A DNA stretch of 64,000 nt from Anaerococcus porci (GTDB lineage Bacteria; Bacillota; Clostridia; Tissierellales; Peptoniphilaceae): contig NZ_VULQ01000009.1 in assembly GCF_009696575.1 (NCBI RefSeq), positions 1 through 64,000 of the forward strand, read 5' to 3'. Below the pieces are notes generated by a model. That model made no database searches and was not told the DNA's origin. It worked only from the letters and a program-made list of their open reading frames with translations. Positions 43,655-55,698 of this stretch are shown here, piece after piece. The position numbers were made by a program, and so were the translations under genes. Position 1 is the first letter of the stretch; every line of letters starts with the position of its first letter.

Positions 43655-43814
43655 AAATTTCGGGATATTTTGTTATTTTATAAATATATTTTTAAAATGT
43701 GAATATTCTCCTTTAATATTTTCACAGATCAAGTACAATCATGAAAACAATTTTAATGAATTAACTTCTATAACTACAAAAAATAAATTTTGAAATAAAG
43801 AATTTGAGGTAAGT

Positions 43815-44954
43815 ATGACTTTATATAAATTATTAATCTTGGATTTGAAAGAAAAAAAGAAAAAAATTGAATATATAGATAAGCAAGTAAGTGATTTTTA
43901 TATGGGAGGTATTTCTCTTTGTCTTTATTGGATAAATAAAAATAAGCAAGTAAAAGATTTTTGGGCTATTTTTACATCTGCTCTTATTAACTATAAGAAT
44001 CCAATTAGTAAATATATAATTTGTAAAGGAAAAAATTCTAAAATCAAATCATATGCTAGCATAGGAGGAGATTTTTCATATTTTTTAAAAAGTAACTCCT
44101 ATGACGCATTGATTCTACTAAATAAGGCAGATAAAATATATGACTTATATATAGATGGTACAGATATAAAATTTAATAAAATATCTAATGATAACAGTAA
44201 TAATGATACTTTCACCTACCTTAAAAATACATATGGCAATGATACATCTTCTATTTATATAACTTCTTCTACAAAAAGAGGAGATAAATTGTCAAGGCTA
44301 ATTGTTGATAAGTATCGTGGATGCTCTAGAAATCTATCAAATTTTCTATATGAAAAAAATCTAAGATCAATTACAATAAGAAAAAATAAACTTAAATCCA
44401 TCTACTTAAATTTATATAAAAAATCTTCAAGTCCTTGTGAAGGCTGTCTTATATCATGTAAGTCAAGGAGTAAAAAAGAAGAATCTAGTAACCTATTTTC
44501 TAAAAAAGATTCTTATCTAAAAGGCGATTTGAATAAATTAAAAGAAATAAAAGAAAGACTTAACCAATATGGTATAGATATTTTCGGCTTATCTAAAAGC
44601 ATAGAATTCTCGTTTAATCATCTAAATCACATCTACAATTTCAAGGATTTAAGTCTTAATAGCTTAGATAATATCGTAAAAAAAGTAACATCAGATAGAA
44701 GAGATAAATTATATGCTGACCTTTCTAATGGTAGGGAGTTTTTAAAAGATAAATATGGTATAAAAACACTGGAAAAAATGAAAAAAACAGACAATTACTC
44801 ATATAATAAAAAGATAATTGATTCTATTTGCATTTGTTTATTTGCAGTAAACATAAATGACATAGAAGATATAGTGGAAACAATAAATATAGTTTCTATG
44901 AAAAACTTTAAAAAAGATAATATTTATTCTTTAATAGCTGAAATAAAAAAATGA
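43815..44954 (+). CDS. Miniature divergent AOR-family-like protein
   Basis: A 379-residue protein that resembles tungsten aldehyde:ferredoxin oxidoreductase (AOR) but is far shorter than the usual 600. The N-terminal part follows the AOR pterin-binding domain in order: FYMGGISLCLYW, ASIGGDFSYFLK, then SYDALILLNKADKIYDLYI and DTFTYLKNTYG. Residues 208-215 (CEGCLISC) keep the first three iron-sulfur cysteines (Cx2Cx3C). LNQYGIDIFGL and DSICICLFAV resemble the two conserved DxxGLx segments; Cys341 may be the fourth ligand. Most of AOR domains 2 and 3 is missing. It converges on a molybdopterin operon. Catalysis is uncertain; a regulatory or scavenging role is possible. Confidence 0.6.
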   Translation: MTLYKLLILDLKEKKKKIEYIDKQVSDFYMGGISLCLYWINKNKQVKDFWAIFTSALINYKNPISKYIICKGKNSKIKSYASIGGDFSYFLKSNSYDALILLNKADKIYDLYIDGTDIKFNKISNDNSNNDTFTYLKNTYGNDTSSIYITSSTKRGDKLSRLIVDKYRGCSRNLSNFLYEKNLRSITIRKNKLKSIYLNLYKKSSSPCEGCLISCKSRSKKEESSNLFSKKDSYLKGDLNKLKEIKERLNQYGIDIFGLSKSIEFSFNHLNHIYNFKDLSLNSLDNIVKKVTSDRRDKLYADLSNGREFLKDKYGIKTLEKMKKTDNYSYNKKIIDSICICLFAVNINDIEDIVETINIVSMKNFKKDNIYSLIAEIKK

Positions 44955-45081: not shown

Positions 45082-46980
45082 TTATATTATTATAGAGCCA
45101 CTTTTATCAGTATTGTATCCTCCAAGTTTTTCCATAGTATCCTTGAATTTTTTTGATTTAAGGATTTCAATAATGTCCTTAATTGAATTAAGTTTCAAAT
45201 TTTTTTCCTTTACTATAAATTGATATTCTTCATCCTTTAAGTAAATAAAGTCAATGTCCATTTTTATGGCAGCCGACTCAACTCCAATAGAAAAGTCACA
45301 GTCCCTATTTTTTACAGCAAGAGCTGCTGAAAGATGGGTTGTTACTTCATTGTCATAGCCCTTTATTTTATATTTATCTATATTTTTCTTATCCAATAAA
45401 TAATCAAATAAAAGTCTTGTTCCAGCTCCCCTTTGCCTATTTATCATGGTCTTATCAAGCAAATCTTCTATAGTTTTTATACCTAAAGGATTTCCCTTTT
45501 CTACATATATACCTTGCCTTCGACCAACCACATTTATTTTTCCTACCTTTTCATTTTTAAAAAATAACTTTATAGCATCATTATTATAAGTACCATTCTT
45601 ATCTAAAAGATGGCTAGGAGCTATTAATGAATCCCCTTCACTTAAGGCCTTAAAACCTGAAAGTGATCCAACATGAGAAGATGATAATCTTGTATTTTTA
45701 TTTTCTATAGCAAGTAAATCATTTATCACATCCAAAACTATATCATGTGAGCCTATTGACACTATCCTATTTTCTAAAACGTTTTTTGGAATAGGTCTAT
45801 GAAGACTTACATTTACAACATCTCCCCTATTATAACCCTCAATATTTCTATCTATAATTACATATCCATCAGATTCTGATAGGGAATATAGGCTTCCTGC
45901 TTTTCTATCTAGAGGTGTTGCTATGAGCTTTCCATCGACTATCCCAATCTTTATCCTTATATATTCCCTATTTTTAAGAGATGATATAATTGGCCTAGTA
46001 AGCTTAGCCTTTAATATTAGCTTATCTTCTATATTTACTCTCATTTTTTTAAGTATTGTAGAAATCACAATTTTATCAAAGATTATATGAGCTGATACTG
46101 GATAACCAGGTAATCCTACAAAAGGTGTTTCTCCTATTTTCCCCAATATTGCAGGCTTTCCTGGTTTTATTGATAATCCATGGGCATAAACTTCACCCAT
46201 TTCTTCCAAAACTTCTCTTGCATAGTCTTTACTTCCTGCAGAAGTTCCTGCAATAAGTGTTATAAAATCACATTCATTTAAGGCTTTTTCTAAGACTGTT
46301 TTTATATCATCTTTATTATCTTTTACTATTGGATAAAGCAATGTATCAATTCCATTTTCCCTTGCCATGCTTATAAGCATGGCAGAGTTTGACTCTATAA
46401 TTTTACCAATTTTTAGCTCATCTTCTTCTCCAATTATTTCATTTCCAGATGGAATAATAGCTAGTTTAACTTTTTTTAATACTTCAACTTCAGTTATTCC
46501 ACTTGCTATAAGAACAGAAAGATCTACCGATGAAAACTTATGAAATGATGTAAATAAGAGATCTTTTTCCACAACATCTTCCCCTTGTATTCTTATATTC
46601 TCCCAAGGATTTACTGCTTTCATTATAGTAATTCCATCTTTTTCAATTTTTACATCCTCAATCATTATCACTGCATCATAACCTTTTACTAGGGCAGAAC
46701 CTGTATTACAAAATATAAAATCTTCATTTTTTAAAAATAATGGTCTATTTTCTCTAGCATATTTGGTCATCTCACTTTTTACCATTACTCCATCCATAGC
46801 AGATGAATGATAGGCAGGAGATGAATATTTTGCATAAATTGCATTTCGACTTACTCTTCCAAATGCATCTTTTGAACTTATAGTTTCAGATTCTAGTTTA
46901 TAAAAAAATTTTAATATATTTTCTTGGAAAATCTTTAAAGCTTTTTCTAATTCCTGAGTATCTAAATATATATTTCTCAT
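45082..46980 (-). CDS. MoeA fused to a PBP-like molybdate-type domain
   Basis: A 632-residue fusion. Residues of about 1-395 are MoeA, inserting molybdate or tungstate into adenylylated molybdopterin: AMDGVMVKSEM, IPSGNEI, AGTSAGSKDYAREVL and VGLPGYPVSAHIIF are visible. Residues of about 400-632 resemble a LysR/periplasmic-binding-type domain (RLSSSHVGSLSGFKAL, NRQRGAGTRLLFDYLLD), an arrangement known in clostridia. The start overlaps the preceding moeA by 4 bases. It is the last gene of the formate dehydrogenase operon. Two MoeA copies may divide Mo and W, as proposed for tungsten users; that is inference. Confidence 0.9.
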   Translation of the reverse strand: MRNIYLDTQELEKALKIFQENILKFFYKLESETISSKDAFGRVSRNAIYAKYSSPAYHSSAMDGVMVKSEMTKYARENRPLFLKNEDFIFCNTGSALVKGYDAVIMIEDVKIEKDGITIMKAVNPWENIRIQGEDVVEKDLLFTSFHKFSSVDLSVLIASGITEVEVLKKVKLAIIPSGNEIIGEEDELKIGKIIESNSAMLISMARENGIDTLLYPIVKDNKDDIKTVLEKALNECDFITLIAGTSAGSKDYAREVLEEMGEVYAHGLSIKPGKPAILGKIGETPFVGLPGYPVSAHIIFDKIVISTILKKMRVNIEDKLILKAKLTRPIISSLKNREYIRIKIGIVDGKLIATPLDRKAGSLYSLSESDGYVIIDRNIEGYNRGDVVNVSLHRPIPKNVLENRIVSIGSHDIVLDVINDLLAIENKNTRLSSSHVGSLSGFKALSEGDSLIAPSHLLDKNGTYNNDAIKLFFKNEKVGKINVVGRRQGIYVEKGNPLGIKTIEDLLDKTMINRQRGAGTRLLFDYLLDKKNIDKYKIKGYDNEVTTHLSAALAVKNRDCDFSIGVESAAIKMDIDFIYLKDEEYQFIVKEKNLKLNSIKDIIEILKSKKFKDTMEKLGGYNTDKSGSIII

Positions 46981-48194
46981 TTAATAAGGCTTACCCACAC
47001 ATATTCATTTTCCCTAAGTCCTTCACTGTATTCATCAATTAAAATATATCCCCTAACTTTCTTTAGTAAGGAAATATTATTTGAAAATCCAAATATAGGT
47101 ATGGCGATAAGCTCATCCTCCCTTCTTTCTATGTCTACTAATTGAATCAAGGTTTTGGCAGATTTAGCATGAATATTTCTAACCAATCTGCATTTAATTT
47201 TAAGACTATCTTCTATATTATAATATCTGTTGTAGGCCTTTTGAAATACACATTTAAAAACTGTATAAGCACTTATTGGATTTCCAGGTAAACCTAGAAT
47301 TATCGTTTTATTATTTAAGCTAAGGCTTGTTGGTTTTCCTGGTTTTATAGAAACACCATGATATATTAGACCAGGTTCTAAATCTTTTGCTATAAATGGT
47401 ATAAAATCTTTTTTTCCCTTTGACGATGATCCAGATACTATTATTAAATCAATATCTTCTAAAAGCTCTTTTCTAATAATCTCTTTATCATCTTTTAAAT
47501 GTTTCATAGAAACTACATTTATGCCCATAGAATTTAGCAATGAGTAAAGCATATAAGAGTTTATATCCCTAGTCTTTGCTGGATAGAGTTCAGATGATAC
47601 TGGAAGAATCTCATCTCCAGTTGATATTATTTTGCAATTTATCTTATCATATACCTCAATCTTATCATAACCTAAGCTTGCAGCCATTGCTATAGTTTCT
47701 GGATCTATAATTTTGCCACTTCTCTGATAAAGATCTCCCTTGCTAGAATCTTCTCCTATATCTATAACATTATCCATAAAGACTATGGGCTTATTGATAG
47801 AAATTAAATCATTAGAAAATTTTTCTGTAAATTCTATTGGTATTACTGAATCTGCCCCTTCAGGAAGCATTCCTCCAGTATAGATTTTTGAAGCTTCTCC
47901 ATTTTCTATCCTACACTTGGGTTCAAATCCCATTTCTATCTCTTCAACAATTCTTAAGATTGTTGGTATAGTATCGCTAGCTCCTTGGCTATCCTTATAT
48001 TTTATTGCATATCCATCCATAGTTGATTTTCTAAAACTAGGCAAATCATCTCTAGATACTAAGTCACTAGCTAGTATATAGCCTAAAGAATTTTTTGTTT
48101 CAAGTAAAATCTTTTTCTTTAATGGAATTTCTTCCATAACTTTTACTTGAAGGTTAACAGCTTCATTTATTGTTTTTACATCTAATAAATCCAT
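46977..48194 (-). CDS. moeA: Molybdopterin molybdotransferase MoeA
   Basis: A 405-residue MoeA. STMDGYAIKY, ISTGDEILPVS, VSGSSSKGKKDF and ILGLPGNPISAYTVFK are the conserved stretches, in order. No extra C-terminal domain is present, unlike the following paralogue. It lies 7 bases after fdhD and overlaps the next gene by ATGA, so translation is coupled. Confidence 0.93.
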   Translation of the reverse strand: MDLLDVKTINEAVNLQVKVMEEIPLKKKILLETKNSLGYILASDLVSRDDLPSFRKSTMDGYAIKYKDSQGASDTIPTILRIVEEIEMGFEPKCRIENGEASKIYTGGMLPEGADSVIPIEFTEKFSNDLISINKPIVFMDNVIDIGEDSSKGDLYQRSGKIIDPETIAMAASLGYDKIEVYDKINCKIISTGDEILPVSSELYPAKTRDINSYMLYSLLNSMGINVVSMKHLKDDKEIIRKELLEDIDLIIVSGSSSKGKKDFIPFIAKDLEPGLIYHGVSIKPGKPTSLSLNNKTIILGLPGNPISAYTVFKCVFQKAYNRYYNIEDSLKIKCRLVRNIHAKSAKTLIQLVDIERREDELIAIPIFGFSNNISLLKKVRGYILIDEYSEGLRENEYVWVSLIK

Positions 48195-48201
48195 AATATT
48201 T

Positions 48202-48906
48202 TTATTCTACAATAAGATTTTTATTCTTATTGTAGATATTAAACCTTTCACCTCTTGCAAAGCCTATTAAATTTATATCCTTACTTCTTGCAATTTCAAC
48301 TGCCCTACTTGTAGGAGATGATTGAGATACTATCAAAGAAAAACCGACTTTTTCTATTTTTTCTATTATTTGCTCATTCACCCTACAAGATGTAAAAATA
48401 AATTTATCGCTTATATCTATCTTTTCTTTTAAAATATGTCCTATAAGTTTATCTACTGCATTGCTCCTAGATACATCTTCTACAAATTTAACTATTTTAC
48501 AATCTTTAATGAGACCTACAGAATGGGCTCCACCCGTACGTTTGAAAATTTCTGATTTATTTTGAAAGATTTTTGAAAGTTTAAATAAGTCATTTTTTTT
48601 GATTCTAAGTATTTTTGTATTATAAACAATTTCTTTTGATAGTTGTGTATTTAAAATTACATAAGAATCTTTATCTTCTATCCTTATACAATTTATATCA
48701 TCAATTGAACTTATATATCCTAAGTTATAAAGATAACCTATAGTTAGATTTTCAATATCTTTTGGACTTATTAAAAGCCTTGCTATAATCTCATCTTTTA
48801 TATGAATATTAAGATCTTTTTCAACTATAACCTCATCTATCATAAAAAATGATTTATCTTTATTTATTTTTTCTATCTTAAAATTTCTAATCAAATCTTT
48901 TTCCAT
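48202..48906 (-). CDS. FdhD-like formate dehydrogenase accessory protein
   Basis: A 234-residue relative of FdhD, which passes sulfur from IscS to the molybdenum cofactor of formate dehydrogenase. RTGGAHSVGLI, FTSCRVNEQIIEK and SPTSRAVEIARS are family motifs. The flexible loop that normally carries the sulfur-shuttling CxxC is missing: no Cys pair lies between residues of about 70 and 115. The first Met overlaps the end of mobA by 20 bases, with AGAAGA as ribosome site. It may bind cofactor without being a standard sulfurtransferase. Confidence 0.88.
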   Translation of the reverse strand: MEKDLIRNFKIEKINKDKSFFMIDEVIVEKDLNIHIKDEIIARLLISPKDIENLTIGYLYNLGYISSIDDINCIRIEDKDSYVILNTQLSKEIVYNTKILRIKKNDLFKLSKIFQNKSEIFKRTGGAHSVGLIKDCKIVKFVEDVSRSNAVDKLIGHILKEKIDISDKFIFTSCRVNEQIIEKIEKVGFSLIVSQSSPTSRAVEIARSKDINLIGFARGERFNIYNKNKNLIVE

Positions 48907-49507
48907 TTTCTTCTAAATAATTTTTCCAATCTTGAGGATAATTTAAATTTCTAAAAACTTTATTTATATTTTCTATATTTTTAATTTCTTCATATTCAAC
49001 CGTATATGCAGAAATTTCATTTAAAAATCCATTTATACTTCTTCTACCTTTATTTAAATAAATCTTTATATTTTCAAACAATTCTTTTTTATATAAGGCA
49101 AAAAATGGCTCTAAATATTTTCCATTATCATATACTAAGGCTTTCTTATATTCTTTATTTTCTAAATATTCTAAATATTGACAACTAAAATAAGGCATAT
49201 CACAAGCCATCAAAAAATTATCTTCATTCGATGAAGAAATAAGACCTGTATACAAACCAGCACATGGTCCTATATTTTTTATTATATCTTCCCTTATAAT
49301 TATATTATTATCATAAGAATTATACCTATCTTTAAAAAAGTCTACTTCATTACTTACTATTACAATCTCATTAAAATATCTAGCTAAGTTTTCTACAATG
49401 GTATCTATCAAGAATGAGCCTTTATAATTTAGTTTTTTTTTATCTTTTCCCATTCTAGTTGATTTTCCGCCAGAAAGTAAGATAGCTGTCAATTCTTTTT
49501 TATCCAT
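48887..49507 (-). CDS. mobA: Molybdenum cofactor guanylyltransferase
   Basis: A 206-residue MobA that adds GMP to molybdopterin to form the dinucleotide cofactor used by formate dehydrogenases. The nucleotide loop is LLSGGKSTRMGKDK; FLMACDMPYFS carries the metal-binding Asp. The ATG at 49507 overlaps the stop of the ferritin-like gene as TAATG, so translation is coupled. An in-frame Met four codons earlier lies inside the previous gene and has no ribosome site. Confidence 0.93.
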   Translation of the reverse strand: MDKKELTAILLSGGKSTRMGKDKKKLNYKGSFLIDTIVENLARYFNEIVIVSNEVDFFKDRYNSYDNNIIIREDIIKNIGPCAGLYTGLISSSNEDNFLMACDMPYFSCQYLEYLENKEYKKALVYDNGKYLEPFFALYKKELFENIKIYLNKGRRSINGFLNEISAYTVEYEEIKNIENINKVFRNLNYPQDWKNYLEENGKRFD

Positions 49508-50004
49508 TAACCACCCCAACTAATATTCATATACTTATCCATCAACCTATCATACTCATCCTTGAAAATCTTAGCATGATTATCTTCCCATCCAGCAAAA
49601 TGACTTAGAATTTCTCTTAATTGTTCATCTTCCACTTTTTTTGACATACTATAATAATCTCTAAAATCTTCTTCTATGAGATAATCCATACGAAGTACAT
49701 TCATATCTTGAATCATAGATTGTTCAAGATTTTGAGCTAAATTCTCACTTTCTTTTCTTTTTTCGAAAAAGATTTCTCCCTTATCTTCAGGTAGATTCAA
49801 TTCTTCACTGACAGTTTCTCCATCCTTATATTTTTTAAGCAATTTCTTAAGATATTCATAATGCTCAAGCTCTATTTTGGATAATTTTTCAAAGATTGCT
49901 TTTGTTTGTAAATTTCTACTTTTTATTGAATTATCTTTGCAAAAGTTATAACCATGCAATTCCATAGCCATGACAAGATTTATTACTTTTATAGAATTAT
50001 ACAT
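49507..50004 (-). CDS. Di-iron ferritin-like protein inside the fdh operon
   Basis: A 165-residue four-helix protein of the ferritin/rubrerythrin superfamily. The expected ligands are in place: Glu15 (AMELHGY), Glu45xxHis48 (IELEHYEYL), Glu111/112 (YLIEEDF) and Glu140xxHis143 (GWEDNHAKI). No rubredoxin domain is attached. The ATG at 50004 is chosen for the AAAGGA site before it; it overlaps the fdhA stop by 8 bases and its own stop overlaps mobA. Such tight coupling suggests a role in protecting or assembling the oxygen-sensitive dehydrogenase, for example peroxide removal. Confidence 0.8.
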   Translation of the reverse strand: MYNSIKVINLVMAMELHGYNFCKDNSIKSRNLQTKAIFEKLSKIELEHYEYLKKLLKKYKDGETVSEELNLPEDKGEIFFEKRKESENLAQNLEQSMIQDMNVLRMDYLIEEDFRDYYSMSKKVEDEQLREILSHFAGWEDNHAKIFKDEYDRLMDKYMNISWGG

Positions 50005-52693
50005 AAGATTTCCTTTCAATCTTTTCTATAAGAACACTTGATACCTTTAACTCAGGTATTTTCGCTATAGGGTCCAAAACAGGATTTGTTAGTAGGTTTG
50101 CAGGTCCATCTGCATAATGAAATGGCATAAATACTACACCAGGCTCTACCTTTTCGGTTATTTTTACAAAAGATTCAACAGATCCTCTCCTTGACTTTAC
50201 CCTAATTTTTTCACCATCTTCTACATTATAAATTTTTGCAGTCTTTGGAGAAATTTCTATATAAGATTTCCCTGCTATTTCATTTAAACCTTCGATTTTC
50301 CCTGTCATAGTTCTTGTATGATATTGATAAAGCATTCTACCGGTTGTAAGAATTAATGGATAATCCTCATCTGGTAATTCCTTACTTTCCTCATATTCAA
50401 TAGCTTTAAAAAGCCCCTTTCCCCTTGCCATAGTATTTTTGTGCATATACTTTGTTCCTGGATGTTCTTTGCCTACACAAGGCCATTGCAAAGACTCTTT
50501 TTCTAATCTTTTGTAACTTATACCACTATAAGATGGGGTGCAAAGAGCTATTTCATCCATAATTTCACTAGGAGAATTATAATATTCTTCATATCCTAGT
50601 AAATTTGATATCTCCATTATAATTTTCCAATCTGCTTTAGACTGACCAATAGGATTTATAGCCTTATTTACTCTTTGAATCCTTCTTTCAGTATTTGTAA
50701 ATGTTCCATCTTTTTCTGCAAAAGAGCTGGCAGGTAAGACAAGATCTGCAAGTTCTGCTGTTTCTGTTAAAAATATATCTTGTACGAGGAGAAAATCTAA
50801 GTTTTCAAGTGACTTTTTAACATGCTTTAAGTCTGGATCTGAGATCATAGGATTTTCACCCATTATATATAAAAATTTAATATCTCCCTTGCCAGCACTA
50901 TTTATCATTTCTGTTAAAGTAAGACCCTTTTTGCTTGGAAGATTACTTTTCCAAAAACTTTCCATACTCTCTCTTACAGGATCTATAAAAACTTTTTGAT
51001 ATCCTGTATAGTCTGTAGGAAGAGCTCCCATATCACAAGCTCCTTGAACATTATTTTGTCCTCTTAGTGGATTAATCCCTGTAGATTCAAATCCAACATT
51101 TCCTGTAAGCATCTGTAAATTGGATGTTGACATAACTCCATTTGTTCCGCTTGAATGTTGAGTTATCCCCATTGAATAATATAGGCTTGCCTTATTGGCC
51201 TTGGCATATATTCTTGCAGCTTTTATTAAATCATTCTTATCAATACCACAAATTTTCGAAACTAAATCTGGCTTGTATTTTTCAATTGTTCTTTTAAATT
51301 CTTCAAATCCTTCTGTTCTTTCATTTATGTAGTCCATATCATGAAGATTTTCTTTCAAAATTACATTCATAATACCGTTTAAAACTGCTATATTGCTGCC
51401 AGGTTTTATTTTTAAAAAGACATCTGCATATTTAGCAAGTTCAATTTCTCGAGGATCTATAACTATTAGTTTTGCTCCATTTTTAACCCTTCTTTTTATC
51501 TTGCTCCCTATAACAGGATGATTTTCAGTTGTATTTGTTCCTATTATCATAAAAGCATCAGTTCCATCTATCTCTTCTATTGAGTTTGTCATAGCTCCAC
51601 TGCCTAATGTATTAGCAAGTCCTGCGACTGTAGATGCATGGCAAAGTCTTGCACAGTGGTCAACGTTATTTGTTTTAAAAACTGTTCTTACAAATTTCTG
51701 AAAGAGGTAATTTTCTTCATTAGTACACCTTGCTGATGAAAAACCTCCGAAAGCATCTGGTCCATTTTCTTTCATAATTTTAGAGTATTTTTCTTTTATA
51801 AGCCTATAGGCTTCTTGCCAGCTAGCTTGAACAAATTTACCATTTCTTTTTATAAGTGGCTTAGTAAGTCTATCTGTATGATTTATAAATCTATATGCAA
51901 ATTTACCTTTTACACATAATAATCCATCATTTGGTATGGTATTTATAGGTTCAATTTCTACTATACGATTGTCCTTACTAAGTAAATTCATCTGGCATCC
52001 TACTCCACAATATGAGCAAGTAGTTTGAGTCCTTTTAACTTCCCAATACCTAAATTTATCCTCTATATATTTCTTTTTAGGATTTAAGGCTCCCACAGGA
52101 CATGCTGAAACGCAATTTCCACAAGATACACAATCGCTATTTCCAAATCCCTTATTAAATGGCGTTTCTACAATTAAATCAAATCCCCTACCTGTAAAAC
52201 TAATGGCTTGACTATTTTGAAGATTATTGCAAATACTTACGCATATACCACATTTTACACACTTATTTGGGTCATAGGTGAAAAATTTGTTTGTCCTATC
52301 TATGGGTAAATTACTTTCTTTATTTTTAAAAGTTGCACTTACTATTCCATACTCATAGCAATAATCTTGTAATTTACACTTACCTGACTTATCACAATTT
52401 AAACAATCATTTGGATGGTTTGAAAATAGCAAATCTAGAATTTGTCTTCTTAATGATTTTATCTTTTCACTATGGGTATAAATTTTCATTCCATCTTTCA
52501 ATTTCTCCGAACAAGAAGTGACAGGATTTTTGTAGCCTTCTATTTCAACAATACAAAGCCTACAAGCTCCATTTGGTAAAACTCTTTTATCATAACATAG
52601 GCTTGGGATATCAATTCCTTGTTTTTTACAGAAGTTAAGAATAGTCATTGGCCTATCTATTTCGTATTCTATATCGTTTATATAGACTCTCAT
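49997..52693 (-). CDS. fdhA: Formate dehydrogenase catalytic subunit (Cys-type)
   Basis: An 898-residue molybdopterin enzyme. The N terminus is NuoG-like: a [2Fe-2S] domain (RLCIVEIEGYKNPVTSC), a His-Cys3 cluster (HPNDCLNCDKSGKC) and two 4Fe-4S sites (CVKCGICVSIC, CVSCGNCVSACPVGA). The catalytic domain starts with CSYCGVGCQMNLL (4Fe-4S) and the active residue is Cys in CARLCHASTVAG, where many relatives have selenocysteine. The Met at 52693 follows AAGGAG; an earlier Met overlaps this site. It sits 1 base after the NuoG-like subunit gene. Confidence 0.93.
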   Translation of the reverse strand: MRVYINDIEYEIDRPMTILNFCKKQGIDIPSLCYDKRVLPNGACRLCIVEIEGYKNPVTSCSEKLKDGMKIYTHSEKIKSLRRQILDLLFSNHPNDCLNCDKSGKCKLQDYCYEYGIVSATFKNKESNLPIDRTNKFFTYDPNKCVKCGICVSICNNLQNSQAISFTGRGFDLIVETPFNKGFGNSDCVSCGNCVSACPVGALNPKKKYIEDKFRYWEVKRTQTTCSYCGVGCQMNLLSKDNRIVEIEPINTIPNDGLLCVKGKFAYRFINHTDRLTKPLIKRNGKFVQASWQEAYRLIKEKYSKIMKENGPDAFGGFSSARCTNEENYLFQKFVRTVFKTNNVDHCARLCHASTVAGLANTLGSGAMTNSIEEIDGTDAFMIIGTNTTENHPVIGSKIKRRVKNGAKLIVIDPREIELAKYADVFLKIKPGSNIAVLNGIMNVILKENLHDMDYINERTEGFEEFKRTIEKYKPDLVSKICGIDKNDLIKAARIYAKANKASLYYSMGITQHSSGTNGVMSTSNLQMLTGNVGFESTGINPLRGQNNVQGACDMGALPTDYTGYQKVFIDPVRESMESFWKSNLPSKKGLTLTEMINSAGKGDIKFLYIMGENPMISDPDLKHVKKSLENLDFLLVQDIFLTETAELADLVLPASSFAEKDGTFTNTERRIQRVNKAINPIGQSKADWKIIMEISNLLGYEEYYNSPSEIMDEIALCTPSYSGISYKRLEKESLQWPCVGKEHPGTKYMHKNTMARGKGLFKAIEYEESKELPDEDYPLILTTGRMLYQYHTRTMTGKIEGLNEIAGKSYIEISPKTAKIYNVEDGEKIRVKSRRGSVESFVKITEKVEPGVVFMPFHYADGPANLLTNPVLDPIAKIPELKVSSVLIEKIERKSYV

Positions 52694-52694
52694 A

Positions 52695-53645
52695 TTATTC
52701 TCCTTCATTTTTCTTTTCTAATTTTGAAATTTTCTTAAAGACATTTTTAAATCCTGTTACTGTTATCCAATCACTTTCAATAAATTCTCCACTTGTCTTT
52801 ATATAAGGTGTATCAGGATTATCTAAGTATAAAAGTTCTGTCATCATTCTTCCCTTAAGGCATAGTGGTCTTCCGTCACTTGGTTTTTTGGCAATAACCG
52901 CAATATTATTTCCATTTTTTGAATAAATTTCAAAATCACATCCAAACTCACAAACTTTACACTTAACAGTCTTTTTATCAGAATCAAAACTTCTAACTTT
53001 TCCTAATATCCTCTTATCTGTTAAGGCTCCTACTGGACATATAGAAACACACCTATTGCAAGATATACAATATGAATGAGCAAAATCTTCTCCCAAATCA
53101 CAAGCAATATATGTATCATATCCTCTATTTGCGAAAGATAAGATAGACCTATCTTCTATTTGTCCACAAATTGATACACACTTCCCACAAAGAATACATT
53201 TAGCATTATCCTTCATTATATAAGGACTAGATAAGTCATAAAATTTTTCTCTTTTTTCTCCATCAATGTCCCTAAAATTAACATCATAATCATAAGCATA
53301 TTTTTGAAGCAAACACTCCCCTGCCTTTTGACAAGTTAGGCAATCATTTGGATGTGAATCTAATAAAAGTTGTAAAATGCCCTTTCTTTTCTTGATTAAA
53401 TTTTTACTACTTGTCTTAATCTCCATACCATCTTTAACTTTCGTTGAACATGAAGTGTCGATCTTTGTCCAACCATTATTTGTAATTTCAACTATACAAA
53501 GTCTACAACCACCAAACTTTTCAAGACTTGGGTCATAACACAAACTTGGAATTTCAATGCCATTTTCTCTAGCAACATCCAAAACAAAGCTATCTTTTTG
53601 AGCTTTTATTTCTTTACCATCTATTTTGATACTTACATAACACAT
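52695..53645 (-). CDS. Truncated NuoG/FdhA-like iron-sulfur subunit
   Basis: A 316-residue protein equal in layout to the N-terminal third of FdhA next door: [2Fe-2S] (FGGCRLCIVEI), HPNDCLTCQKAGEC, CILCGKCVSIC and CISCNRCVSICPVGAL. It then keeps the opening of the molybdopterin domain (CKVCEFGCDFEIY...PLCLKG) but stops before the catalytic core. It therefore has electron-carrying clusters but no active site. It lies between the NuoF-like and catalytic genes, so it is likely an electron-wire subunit of the complex. Confidence 0.87.
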   Translation of the reverse strand: MCYVSIKIDGKEIKAQKDSFVLDVARENGIEIPSLCYDPSLEKFGGCRLCIVEITNNGWTKIDTSCSTKVKDGMEIKTSSKNLIKKRKGILQLLLDSHPNDCLTCQKAGECLLQKYAYDYDVNFRDIDGEKREKFYDLSSPYIMKDNAKCILCGKCVSICGQIEDRSILSFANRGYDTYIACDLGEDFAHSYCISCNRCVSICPVGALTDKRILGKVRSFDSDKKTVKCKVCEFGCDFEIYSKNGNNIAVIAKKPSDGRPLCLKGRMMTELLYLDNPDTPYIKTSGEFIESDWITVTGFKNVFKKISKLEKKNEGE

Positions 53646-53649
53646 AAAA

Positions 53650-55188
53650 TCACCCTTTAGCTACAGCTTTTGGCTTGATTGGACATACATCTAGACAAGT
53701 ACCACACTTAATACACTTTTCTTGATCTATTTTATGAATTTCTTTTTTACTTCCACTAATACATGAAACCGGACAATTTCTCTTACAAGTCCCACATCCT
53801 ACACAATTATTTTTTATACTAAAATGTATAAGATTCTTACATGTACCAGCAGTACAATGTTTATTTTTTATATGATCAATGTATTCATTTTTAAAATATT
53901 TCAACGTTGAAATTACAGGAAAAGCTGCTGATTTACCCAAGCCACAAAGAGAAGTTTCTGTAGTTAATTCACAAAGTTCCATTAATTTGTCTATATCTTC
54001 ACTTCTTCCATCACCATTAACTATTCTTTCGAGTATTTCTAGAATTCTTTTAGTGCCTTCTCGACAAGGGACACATTTACCACAAGATTCATCACATGTA
54101 AATTCCAAAAAAAATCTTGCTATATCAACCATACAGGTATCCTCATCCATAACTACCATTCCACCAGAGCCCATTATGGAATCTAGTTCTTTAAGCGTCT
54201 CATAGTCAACCGACTTGTCTAGGAATTTAGCTGGTATGCAGCCTCCAGATGGGCCTCCAGTTTGTACAGCTTTAAGCTTTTTATCATTTTCTATTCCTCC
54301 GCCTAAATCATATATAATCTCTCTTAGGCTAGTTCCCATACTTACCTCTATTAGGCCACTTTTTTTTACATCTCCTACTAAAGAAAATACCTTGGTTCCT
54401 GGAGATTTTTCTGTACCAATACTTCTGTACCAGTCCGAGCCATTTAAAATAATTTGGCAAACATTTGCTAAGGTTTCAACATTATTAATTACGGTAGGTT
54501 TTTGCCACAAGCCCTTAAAAGCTGTTCTGTGAATCTTAACCCTTGGCATCCCTCTTTTACCTTCTATCGACTCCATAAGAGCAGTTGATTCTCCACATAC
54601 AAAAGCTCCTGAACCTAACCTAAGTTCTATAGTAAAATTAAATCCAGAATCCATAATATTTTCACCTAAAAAGCCCTTCTCACTAGCCTCTTTTATAGCA
54701 TAATTAAGACTTTTAACAGCTTTTGGATATTCTGCCCTTACGTATATAAATCCTTCATCACTACCAATTGCATATCCTGCTATAATCATAGCCTCTATTA
54801 CTGAATGTGGATCATACTCAAGTATGGACCTATCCATATAGGCACCAGGGTCTCCCTCATCGGCATTACAAATAATATATTTTTTATCAACATCATAATC
54901 AAAGGCAGTTTGCCACTTGCGACCCGTTGGAAAACCTGCTCCACCCCTGCCTCTAAGCTTTGAATCCTTTATAATATCAATAACTTCTTGTTGACTCATC
55001 TCTTTTAGCACCTTATAAAGGGCAAAATAACCATCTCTTGCTATGTACTCATCAATATTTTTAGAATCTATAACTCCTAAATTTCTTAAGGCTATTTTAA
55101 CTTGAATATCATCTTTTTTATCTAAATTTTCTGGATGACTTATTTCTGTATTTTCTTTTATATTTCTAAGATATTTTAAATCAATCAT
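53650..55188 (-). CDS. NuoF-like NAD(H)/FMN subunit of formate dehydrogenase
   Basis: A 512-residue flavoprotein. LRGRGGAGFPTGRKW and CNADEGDPGAYMDR bind FMN and NAD; SCGKCVPCREGTKR and the later Cys in SLCGLGKSA hold the N3-type 4Fe-4S cluster. The C terminus adds two ferredoxin-type clusters (CVGCGTCKRNC, CIKCGTCLDVC). This is the layout of HymB/HydB/HylB subunits, which link NAD to ferredoxin. It follows the NuoE-like gene by 9 bases. Confidence 0.93.
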   Translation of the reverse strand: MIDLKYLRNIKENTEISHPENLDKKDDIQVKIALRNLGVIDSKNIDEYIARDGYFALYKVLKEMSQQEVIDIIKDSKLRGRGGAGFPTGRKWQTAFDYDVDKKYIICNADEGDPGAYMDRSILEYDPHSVIEAMIIAGYAIGSDEGFIYVRAEYPKAVKSLNYAIKEASEKGFLGENIMDSGFNFTIELRLGSGAFVCGESTALMESIEGKRGMPRVKIHRTAFKGLWQKPTVINNVETLANVCQIILNGSDWYRSIGTEKSPGTKVFSLVGDVKKSGLIEVSMGTSLREIIYDLGGGIENDKKLKAVQTGGPSGGCIPAKFLDKSVDYETLKELDSIMGSGGMVVMDEDTCMVDIARFFLEFTCDESCGKCVPCREGTKRILEILERIVNGDGRSEDIDKLMELCELTTETSLCGLGKSAAFPVISTLKYFKNEYIDHIKNKHCTAGTCKNLIHFSIKNNCVGCGTCKRNCPVSCISGSKKEIHKIDQEKCIKCGTCLDVCPIKPKAVAKG

Positions 55189-55197
55189 TTTTATCGC

Positions 55198-55698
55198 CTA
55201 CTTATATTTTTCCAAAACTTTTTTAACATCTTCTTTAGTAAAGTGAGCAAGCTGCTTACCATTAATCTCAACAACAGGAGCCTTCCCACAATCTCCTAAA
55301 CACCTTGTTTCAGATATTGAGAATTTTCTATCTTCTGTTGTCTCCCCTTTTTTTATATTAAGTCTTTTTTCAAACTCCTCTAAAATATCTGCCCCACCCT
55401 TTACATAACAAGCAGTTCCAAGGCATATATGTATATCTGTTTTTCCCTTAGGTATAAATGTAAATTGCGAATAAAAGGTAGCCACTCCATAAATCTCAGC
55501 CAAAGGAATATTTAGTTTACTTGAAATAAGCTTTAATATTTCTTCTGGCAAATATCCAAAAACATTTTGACCTTCTTGCAAAATTGGCATCAATGGTCCT
55601 TTTCTGTCCTTATTTTTTTCAATAAATTTCTTAAATTCATCAATCTTTTCTTTATTTTCTTCTTTATCAAATATAAAATTTCCCTTAATTGTTTTCAT
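55198..55698 (-). CDS. NuoE-like [2Fe-2S] subunit of formate dehydrogenase
   Basis: A 166-residue thioredoxin-like [2Fe-2S] protein of the NuoE/HymA/HylA family. The four cysteines are in CLGTACYVKGG and TRCLGDCGKAP, and EIYGVATFYSQF precedes them. It is the first gene of the operon and has AAAGGA before the ATG. Together with the next three genes it fits NAD-linked formate dehydrogenases of the HylABC type, one of which is electron-bifurcating in Gottschalkia; bifurcation is not proven by sequence. Confidence 0.92.
   Translation of the reverse strand: MKTIKGNFIFDKEENKEKIDEFKKFIEKNKDRKGPLMPILQEGQNVFGYLPEEILKLISSKLNIPLAEIYGVATFYSQFTFIPKGKTDIHICLGTACYVKGGADILEEFEKRLNIKKGETTEDRKFSISETRCLGDCGKAPVVEINGKQLAHFTKEDVKKVLEKYK

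Follow-up and report, generated by a model that had tools for sequence, protein, structure and literature searches.

A shortened relative of aldehyde:ferredoxin oxidoreductases facing a formate dehydrogenase cassette in Anaerococcus, and its possible role as a cofactor holder

In the window, by which we mean the whole 64,000-nucleotide stretch of Anaerococcus porci DNA analysed here, a single open frame on the + strand (43815..44954, with its ATG at 43815 and its stop at 44954) encodes a protein of 379 residues related to the aldehyde:ferredoxin oxidoreductases (AORs), hereafter the mini-AOR or mini. Coordinates, strand and length had been given correctly in the first-pass annotation. A likely ribosome-binding site, GAGG, is found at 43806..43809 (+), with 5 bases between its end and the ATG; orthologues, when inspected by eye, have a comparable purine-rich run ahead of the ATG, and several of them also share, again by eye only, a TAGTACAAT-like stretch 5' of the gene. 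A promoter scan found 16 sites against 16.0 expected and thus gives no evidence of a promoter. No molybdenum cofactor riboswitch was found with Rfam at the gathering threshold at six orthologue loci, where the sole match was a TPP riboswitch in L024, and the only Rfam match in positions 38000-60000 of the window at E <= 0.5 is a weak SECIS_3. On one side the gene is flanked by a PTS gene that points away from it. On the other it is convergent with moeA2, at a stop-to-stop distance of 127 bp, so that it lies outside the molybdopterin operon at whose end the first-pass annotation had placed it.

The genes of the neighbouring cassette are all encoded on the - strand. Closest to the mini are moeA2 (45082..46980; 632 aa), a MoeA fused to a C-terminal domain of the PRK14498 type (NCBIfam NF011068, 639.5 bits, cut-off 534), and moeA1 (46977..48194; 405 aa), whose MoeA-type matches fall under the equivalog cut-offs. 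They are followed by fdhD, encoding formate dehydrogenase sulfurtransferase (48202..48906; TIGR00129 above cut-off), a gene for a mobA-like guanylyltransferase (48887..49519; NCBIfam, under the equivalog cut-offs), one for a small ferritin-like protein of 170 aa (49507..50019; named by look, conserved in position and with no NCBIfam match at E <= 1e-10) and fdhA, encoding the alpha subunit of formate dehydrogenase in its catalytic Cys form (49997..52708; TIGR01591, 872 bits). NCBIfam matches identify the remaining genes as those of a NuoG/HoxU-like iron-sulfur subunit (52695..53645), a NuoF-like subunit (53650..55188) and a NuoE-like subunit (55198..55698). Nine of the ten mini loci or genomes have the ferritin-like protein between fdhA and mobA; the exception is G012, which has no fdhA. 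The weak SECIS_3 match lies inside fdhA (51588-51646, - strand; 25 bits, gathering threshold 63) and starts at the codon directly before the TGC of Cys356. The FdhA reading frame contains one TGA in a second mini-bearing genus, g17, and in most other genomes of the bacterial family, and none in seven Anaerococcus genomes. Presuming that these codons are equivalent, the match looks like the relic of a selenocysteine site turned Cys.

The kinship of the mini with AOR/WOR proteins is confirmed by several sequence comparisons. Of the two Pfam families of AOR, on which the first-pass annotation would have its reading judged, the N-terminal one, AFOR_N (PF02730), is recovered at residues 5-190 (43827..44384, +) with 42 bits against a cut-off of 29.8 (E 1.1e-10), but AFOR_C (PF01314) stays under its cut-off, with 23.9 bits against 27. 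Among the seven orthologues with an open frame, the window protein included, AFOR_N exceeds the cut-off in all, and AFOR_C in four, the window protein being one of the three below it. These families correspond to IPR013983 and IPR001203, respectively, in PMC13328260. Scored with a profile built from 11 full-length AORs, the window protein reaches 45.9 bits, and the best of its 1000 shuffled versions only 4.4 bits, which rules out chance similarity. Conversely, the nine distinct PDB sequences that a profile of the seven minis retrieves at E <= 0.01 all come from the AOR family. NCBIfam reports no AOR match for the window protein up to E 10 and, among three other minis, a weak match to an AOR model (E 9.7e-5) for one, and phage families give only weak matches of unknown function.

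The positions of the ligands known from PfAOR were transferred to the minis through L049, a close PfAOR relative, 375 of whose 599 positions align to the window protein. In PfAOR, Arg76 and Arg182 are phosphate anchors of the bis-pterin. The order of segments and cysteines noted in the first-pass annotation is real and conserved in orthologues: the CX2CX3C triplet at residues 208-215, LNQYGIDIFGL at 249-259 and Cys341 are all present. Cys208, Cys211 and Cys215 (44436..44459, +) correspond to PfAOR Cys288, Cys291 and Cys295, and are invariant in 7/7 open minis and 11/11 full-length AORs. Together with Cys341, the counterpart of Cys494, they make up the four cluster cysteines, which are kept in all seven open orthologues. 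Of the eight cysteines of the window protein these four are the invariant ones, and the orthologue at L035 has exactly four cysteines. Since similarity to AOR is found and the cysteines are conserved, neither of the two grounds on which the first-pass annotation would have given up its proposal applies. The open minis also retain, in PfAOR numbering, Gly95, Gly96, Gly341, Asp343, Asp489 and Ser490. The two former are Gly84-Gly85 of the window protein (44064..44069, +), invariant in the seven minis and the 11 full-length AORs.

Pterin motifs of AORs have the form DXXGL[DC]. In the window protein the first of them reads NQYGID (Asn250-Asp255, PfAOR 338-343; 44562..44579, +), with Gly253 and Asp255 invariant, and the second, which includes the fourth cluster ligand, reads DSICIC (Asp336-Cys341, PfAOR 489-494; 44820..44837, +), with Asp336, Ser337 and Cys341 invariant. 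The window copy is the exception at two motif positions, with Asn at position 338, where the other six have Asp, and Cys at position 492, where the other six have Gly. Altogether, 11 of 14 cofactor-motif positions are invariant among the minis compared with 51 of 379 positions overall (p 2.5e-8, for 14 sites chosen after viewing the alignment). Missing from the window protein are PfAOR blocks 221-283, 299-307, 415-471 and 539-598, together with short pieces. The earlier statement that most of domains 2-3 is absent thus holds for these large blocks and fails for the cluster and pterin motifs of both domains, which remain. The minis measure 377-389 aa, well below the approximately 600 of an AOR with complete domains 2 and 3.

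The side chains around the magnesium clamp and the phosphates of the bis-pterin are mostly altered: Arg76 is replaced by Lys in 6/7 open minis and Ala183 by Gly in 7/7, Asn93 is kept in one and Arg182 in four. The magnesium ligands themselves are main-chain groups. Asn93 and Ala183 are described as the main-chain ligands of the magnesium that joins both pterins (PMC12096430, PMC13328260).

Structure prediction points to the same family. An AlphaFold2 model from an 18-row alignment of minis and full-length AORs has a pLDDT of 81.8 and a pTM of 0.76, with residues 199-205, 210-220 and 321-328 under 50, and 9/9 of its structural matches at E <= 0.001 belong to the AOR family (1aor, TMq 0.64). Because the full-length AORs in the alignment could steer the model, a second fold was predicted from the minis alone. 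This model has a pLDDT of 63.5, with the whole of 193-257 under 50, and again 9/9 matches are AOR family members, mainly through domain 1 (1aor, TMq 0.45, 205 columns, 3.2 A). The AOR fold of domain 1 is therefore a firm prediction, and for the rest of the protein an AOR fold is suggested by the sequence together with the 18-row model.

Minis have a narrow distribution. A search of 130 genomes of the bacterial family returned 13 with a match, ten of them of the mini type (eight Anaerococcus, including A. vaginalis, A. obesiensis, A. ihuae and A. jeddahensis, and two of g17); the other three are long AORs in G063 and G087 and a weak local match in G116. A pattern-seeded profile scan of genome contigs from 84,980 species yielded 26 loci with a relative, namely eight minis and 18 full-length AORs, recognised by frames of 600-634 codons from stop to stop; scanning the genome-contig collection with the window protein as single query found nothing. 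The full-length AORs of G063 (L026, 601 aa) and G087 (L027, 621 aa), from the same bacterial family, differ from the minis in that both AFOR_N and AFOR_C lie far above cut-off. In a tree of 39 AOR proteins (including 18 of 19 order-level AOR loci, with L075 left out), the seven open minis share one origin (support 100/100) and have the G063 AOR as sister (100/98). The mini branch is long, at about 1.6 changes per column, so the support overstates the certainty of this sister placement.

Seven of the ten mini loci are open and three interrupted, by frameshifts near the N-terminus in G036, at an A-run near the C-terminus in G012 and in mid-gene in G069. All three breaks lie in or near A or T runs and could be assembly errors, and the four cysteines are readable at 10/10 loci, piecewise at the interrupted ones. 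For the in-frame parts of two close pairs, the dN/dS of the mini is 0.25 (G035/G036) and 0.21 (G011/G012), compared with 0.02-0.15 for eight neighbours in the first pair (a ninth, S7, shows no difference) and 0.01-0.08 for three in the second; by dN alone, FdhD exceeds the mini in G035/G036 (0.043 versus 0.034). The mini is thus under purifying selection, weaker than that on its neighbours, and the idea that it is nothing but a pseudogene is disfavoured by both ratios. A milder version of decay, in which a former AOR is being lost and persists temporarily because it is linked to the fdh cassette, would account for the interrupted copies, for the long branch and for a dN/dS that is the highest among the genes compared in both pairs. 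We consider it unlikely, as the seven open copies are mutually 34-56% identical, share the same large deletions and invariant ligands and have ratios well below 1. Moreover, the breaks may be artefacts of A/T runs, and in G012, the sole genome whose copy has lost its fdh partners, the mini carries a frameshift, which is what one would predict for a functional partner.

As the first-pass annotation had suggested checking, orthologues do adjoin moeA and fdh genes. Where contigs allow it to be read, the fullest order is NuoE, NuoF, FeS, FdhA, ferritin-like, MobA, FdhD, MoeA1, MoeA2, TupA, TupB, TupC and then the facing mini. At eight of the ten loci the mini gene and tupC, from a transporter of the tungstate type, run towards each other; the window and G012 lack the tup genes at this place. 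NCBIfam tung_bind_TupA is matched by TupA of L017 (E 4e-62, below the model's cut-off), and TupB and TupC are named by position and look. The other flank varies (rpsL, PTS, a lipoprotein-like gene with CRISPR genes beyond, mnmE-like, ThiT-like, the last names given by eye), which indicates that the block has moved or rearranged with the mini staying with it. No tupA match was obtained in the window genome, which does carry modABC-like genes (G000:C34:159-2491, locus L094); since the mini is kept there all the same, its presence does not depend on tungstate uptake specifically.

Across 31 Anaerococcus genomes, the mini occurs in eight, fdhA in seven, moeA1 in seven, tupA in six and moaA in 19. 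All seven genomes with fdhA carry a mini, against one of the 24 without it (the frameshifted copy of G012), which gives a Fisher p of 3e-6 over genomes that are non-independent. As only G012 has a mini among the 12 genomes with moaA and without fdhA, the mini tracks fdhA and not pterin synthesis. When mapped on an EF-G tree that covers 30 of these genomes (G029 gave no EF-G match), fdhA and the mini need six changes each, and independent pairs on supported branches agree in three cases and show no difference in one, a sign test without significance (p 0.25). Physical linkage explains part of the co-occurrence. The window genome contains no other AOR and no PF00384 match besides the adjacent FdhA, which leaves formate dehydrogenase as the visible client. 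Of the 32 genomes in the bacterial family in which FdhA was matched, 23 have no mini, all of them outside both mini-bearing genera, and so the mini is no general need of formate dehydrogenase. The co-occurrence with fdhA and the invariant cysteines would also suit an accessory or electron-transfer subunit of formate dehydrogenase that acts through its 4Fe-4S site, perhaps without pterin. This is improbable, given that the mini and the fdh genes are on opposite strands in every case where the two occur side by side and that the mini retains pterin motifs needless for a plain electron carrier.

A gene that faces tup and moeA could also encode a sensor or regulator that binds the tungsten- or molybdenum-bis-pterin or the cluster and controls the expression of tup, moeA or fdh genes. 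In four of the seven open copies (L017, L019, L022 and L023), residues ~241-292 show similarity to HTH_26 at E <= 0.05, in one case above the Pfam cut-off (23.7 versus 22), and none of eight full-length AORs does so at E <= 1; a mini-specific insertion of four residues after the first pterin motif falls within this stretch. However, HTH_26 is not reported for the other three copies, including that of the window, the HTH_26 region and the pterin motif overlap, and each model has one long helix there (256-269 or 256-274, the second at low confidence) and no HTH turn. Consequently a regulatory role appears quite improbable, and its Cro/C1-type form is rejected on the absence of helix-turn-helix geometry from either model and the weakness of the Pfam match.

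With regard to catalysis, the second-shell residues Thr243, Tyr312, Tyr427 and His448 are kept in none of the seven open minis, and Glu313 is lost in five, with a Glu in L028 and L031 in a stretch that aligns poorly. Thr243, Glu313, Tyr427 and His448 are described as the conserved second shell on which the proposed AOR mechanism relies (PMC12096430, PMC13328260). The retained cofactor ligands and the Glu of two copies might be invoked for a reduced enzyme of AOR type that is still active by means of a different second shell. This is highly improbable given the loss of Thr243, Tyr312, Tyr427 and His448 in 7/7 and of Glu313 in 5/7, four of these five residues belonging to the mechanism proposed in PMC12096430. 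The mini is like AOR/WorL (PfAOR, 1aor; Clostridium autoethanogenum AFOR, 9g7j) in the fold of domain 1, the four cluster cysteines and both pterin motifs, and unlike them in having 379 instead of ~600 residues, in the loss of most of the catalytic second shell and in the absence of blocks 221-283, 415-471 and 539-598. It is a homologue that fails on both catalytic residues and size, and classing it among the AOR enzymes would be wrong.

The cofactor of AORs is a metal-bis-molybdopterin (metal-bis-MPT) without nucleotide, and that of formate dehydrogenase is the guanylated form, which MobA makes and FdhD delivers. Guanylation by MobA and delivery by FdhD are also described for formate dehydrogenase in the abstract of PMC13197769. 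Given that the seat for bis-MPT is kept, the chemistry is lost and the neighbours are MoeA, MobA and FdhD, a holding or hand-over function fits best. Our tentative preference, at somewhat less than even odds, is that the mini is a non-catalytic protein that binds a metal-bis-pterin and a 4Fe-4S cluster and serves the assembly of the formate dehydrogenase cofactor; the binding of cofactor and cluster, the hand-over and the step of action are what we infer. In such a domesticated AOR, the seat for tungsten (or molybdenum) bis-molybdopterin and one 4Fe-4S cluster would have been kept while three large blocks were cut out, two of them with catalytic second-shell residues, probably leaving a more open site. 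The protein would take metal-bis-MPT after MoeA has inserted the metal, and would hand it on towards MobA, which adds GMP, and FdhD/FdhA. The 4Fe-4S cluster may act as a structural pin, because it adjoins the pterin in AORs. Among the three options offered by the first-pass annotation, that of a pterin or cluster carrier thus fits best, that of a reduced enzyme is disfavoured and that of a sensor finds weak support.

Several observations count against this holder function. The anchors Arg76, Asn93, Ala183 and Arg182 are largely changed, and model confidence is low at the expected cluster site (residues 210-220, pLDDT < 50). The dN/dS of the mini is above that of its neighbours, and three of ten copies have frameshifts or stops. 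Linkage alone could yield the co-occurrence with fdhA, the sign test is not significant, most FdhA-bearing genomes of the family (23/32) manage without a mini, and the window genome keeps the gene without a tupA match.

Finished tungsten or molybdenum cofactor is unstable outside proteins. Prokaryotes are described, in an extract of PMC10609526, as devoid of cofactor-storing proteins like the eukaryotic carriers, a multiprotein complex being proposed instead. The role suggested here, to hold finished or half-finished cofactor, resembles that of the eukaryotic molybdenum cofactor carriers, which PMC10609526 mentions, but there is no sign of kinship: the fold search with the mini finds only AORs at E <= 0.001. 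The tungsten pathway MoeA1-MobB-MobA-FdhD for formate dehydrogenase shares moeA, mobA-like and fdhD genes with the window cassette, and its abstract mentions no AOR-like part (PMC13197769). It is possible, though doubtful, that a stripped tungsten enzyme serves as a bacterial carrier of metal-bis-MPT for formate dehydrogenase and fills the carrier or storage role said to be absent in prokaryotes. In open-licence papers, no study was found on Anaerococcus together with a truncated AOR, with formate dehydrogenase and tungsten, or with molybdopterin and formate dehydrogenase, and among the matches listed for AOR and cofactor assembly, judging by titles and the openings of abstracts, none describes a truncated non-catalytic AOR. 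The mini family is thus real and conserved, and we have not seen it described in the literature searched. A conserved AOR that has the cofactor seat, lacks the chemistry and is tied to one client is a direct, testable candidate for a cofactor carrier; if confirmed, it would show plainly how a metalloenzyme can become an accessory protein, and would offer a natural minimal scaffold for the tungsten-bis-pterin.

Finally, two further arrangements were observed. In G030 (99% complete) and G026 (89%), tupA is present and there is no match to the modA of the window genome; Anaerococcus species may have swapped tungsten and molybdenum uptake for the same formate dehydrogenase. In G087, the 621-aa AOR, encoded within L027:2732-14874, stands in a row with Tup-like ABC genes (identified by look) and two moeA, and the same row includes MoaD-like, ThiF-like and NuoE/NuoF/FdhA-N-like genes. 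This row may be an electron-bifurcating WOR operon, and the mini cassette could have arisen from an arrangement like it.
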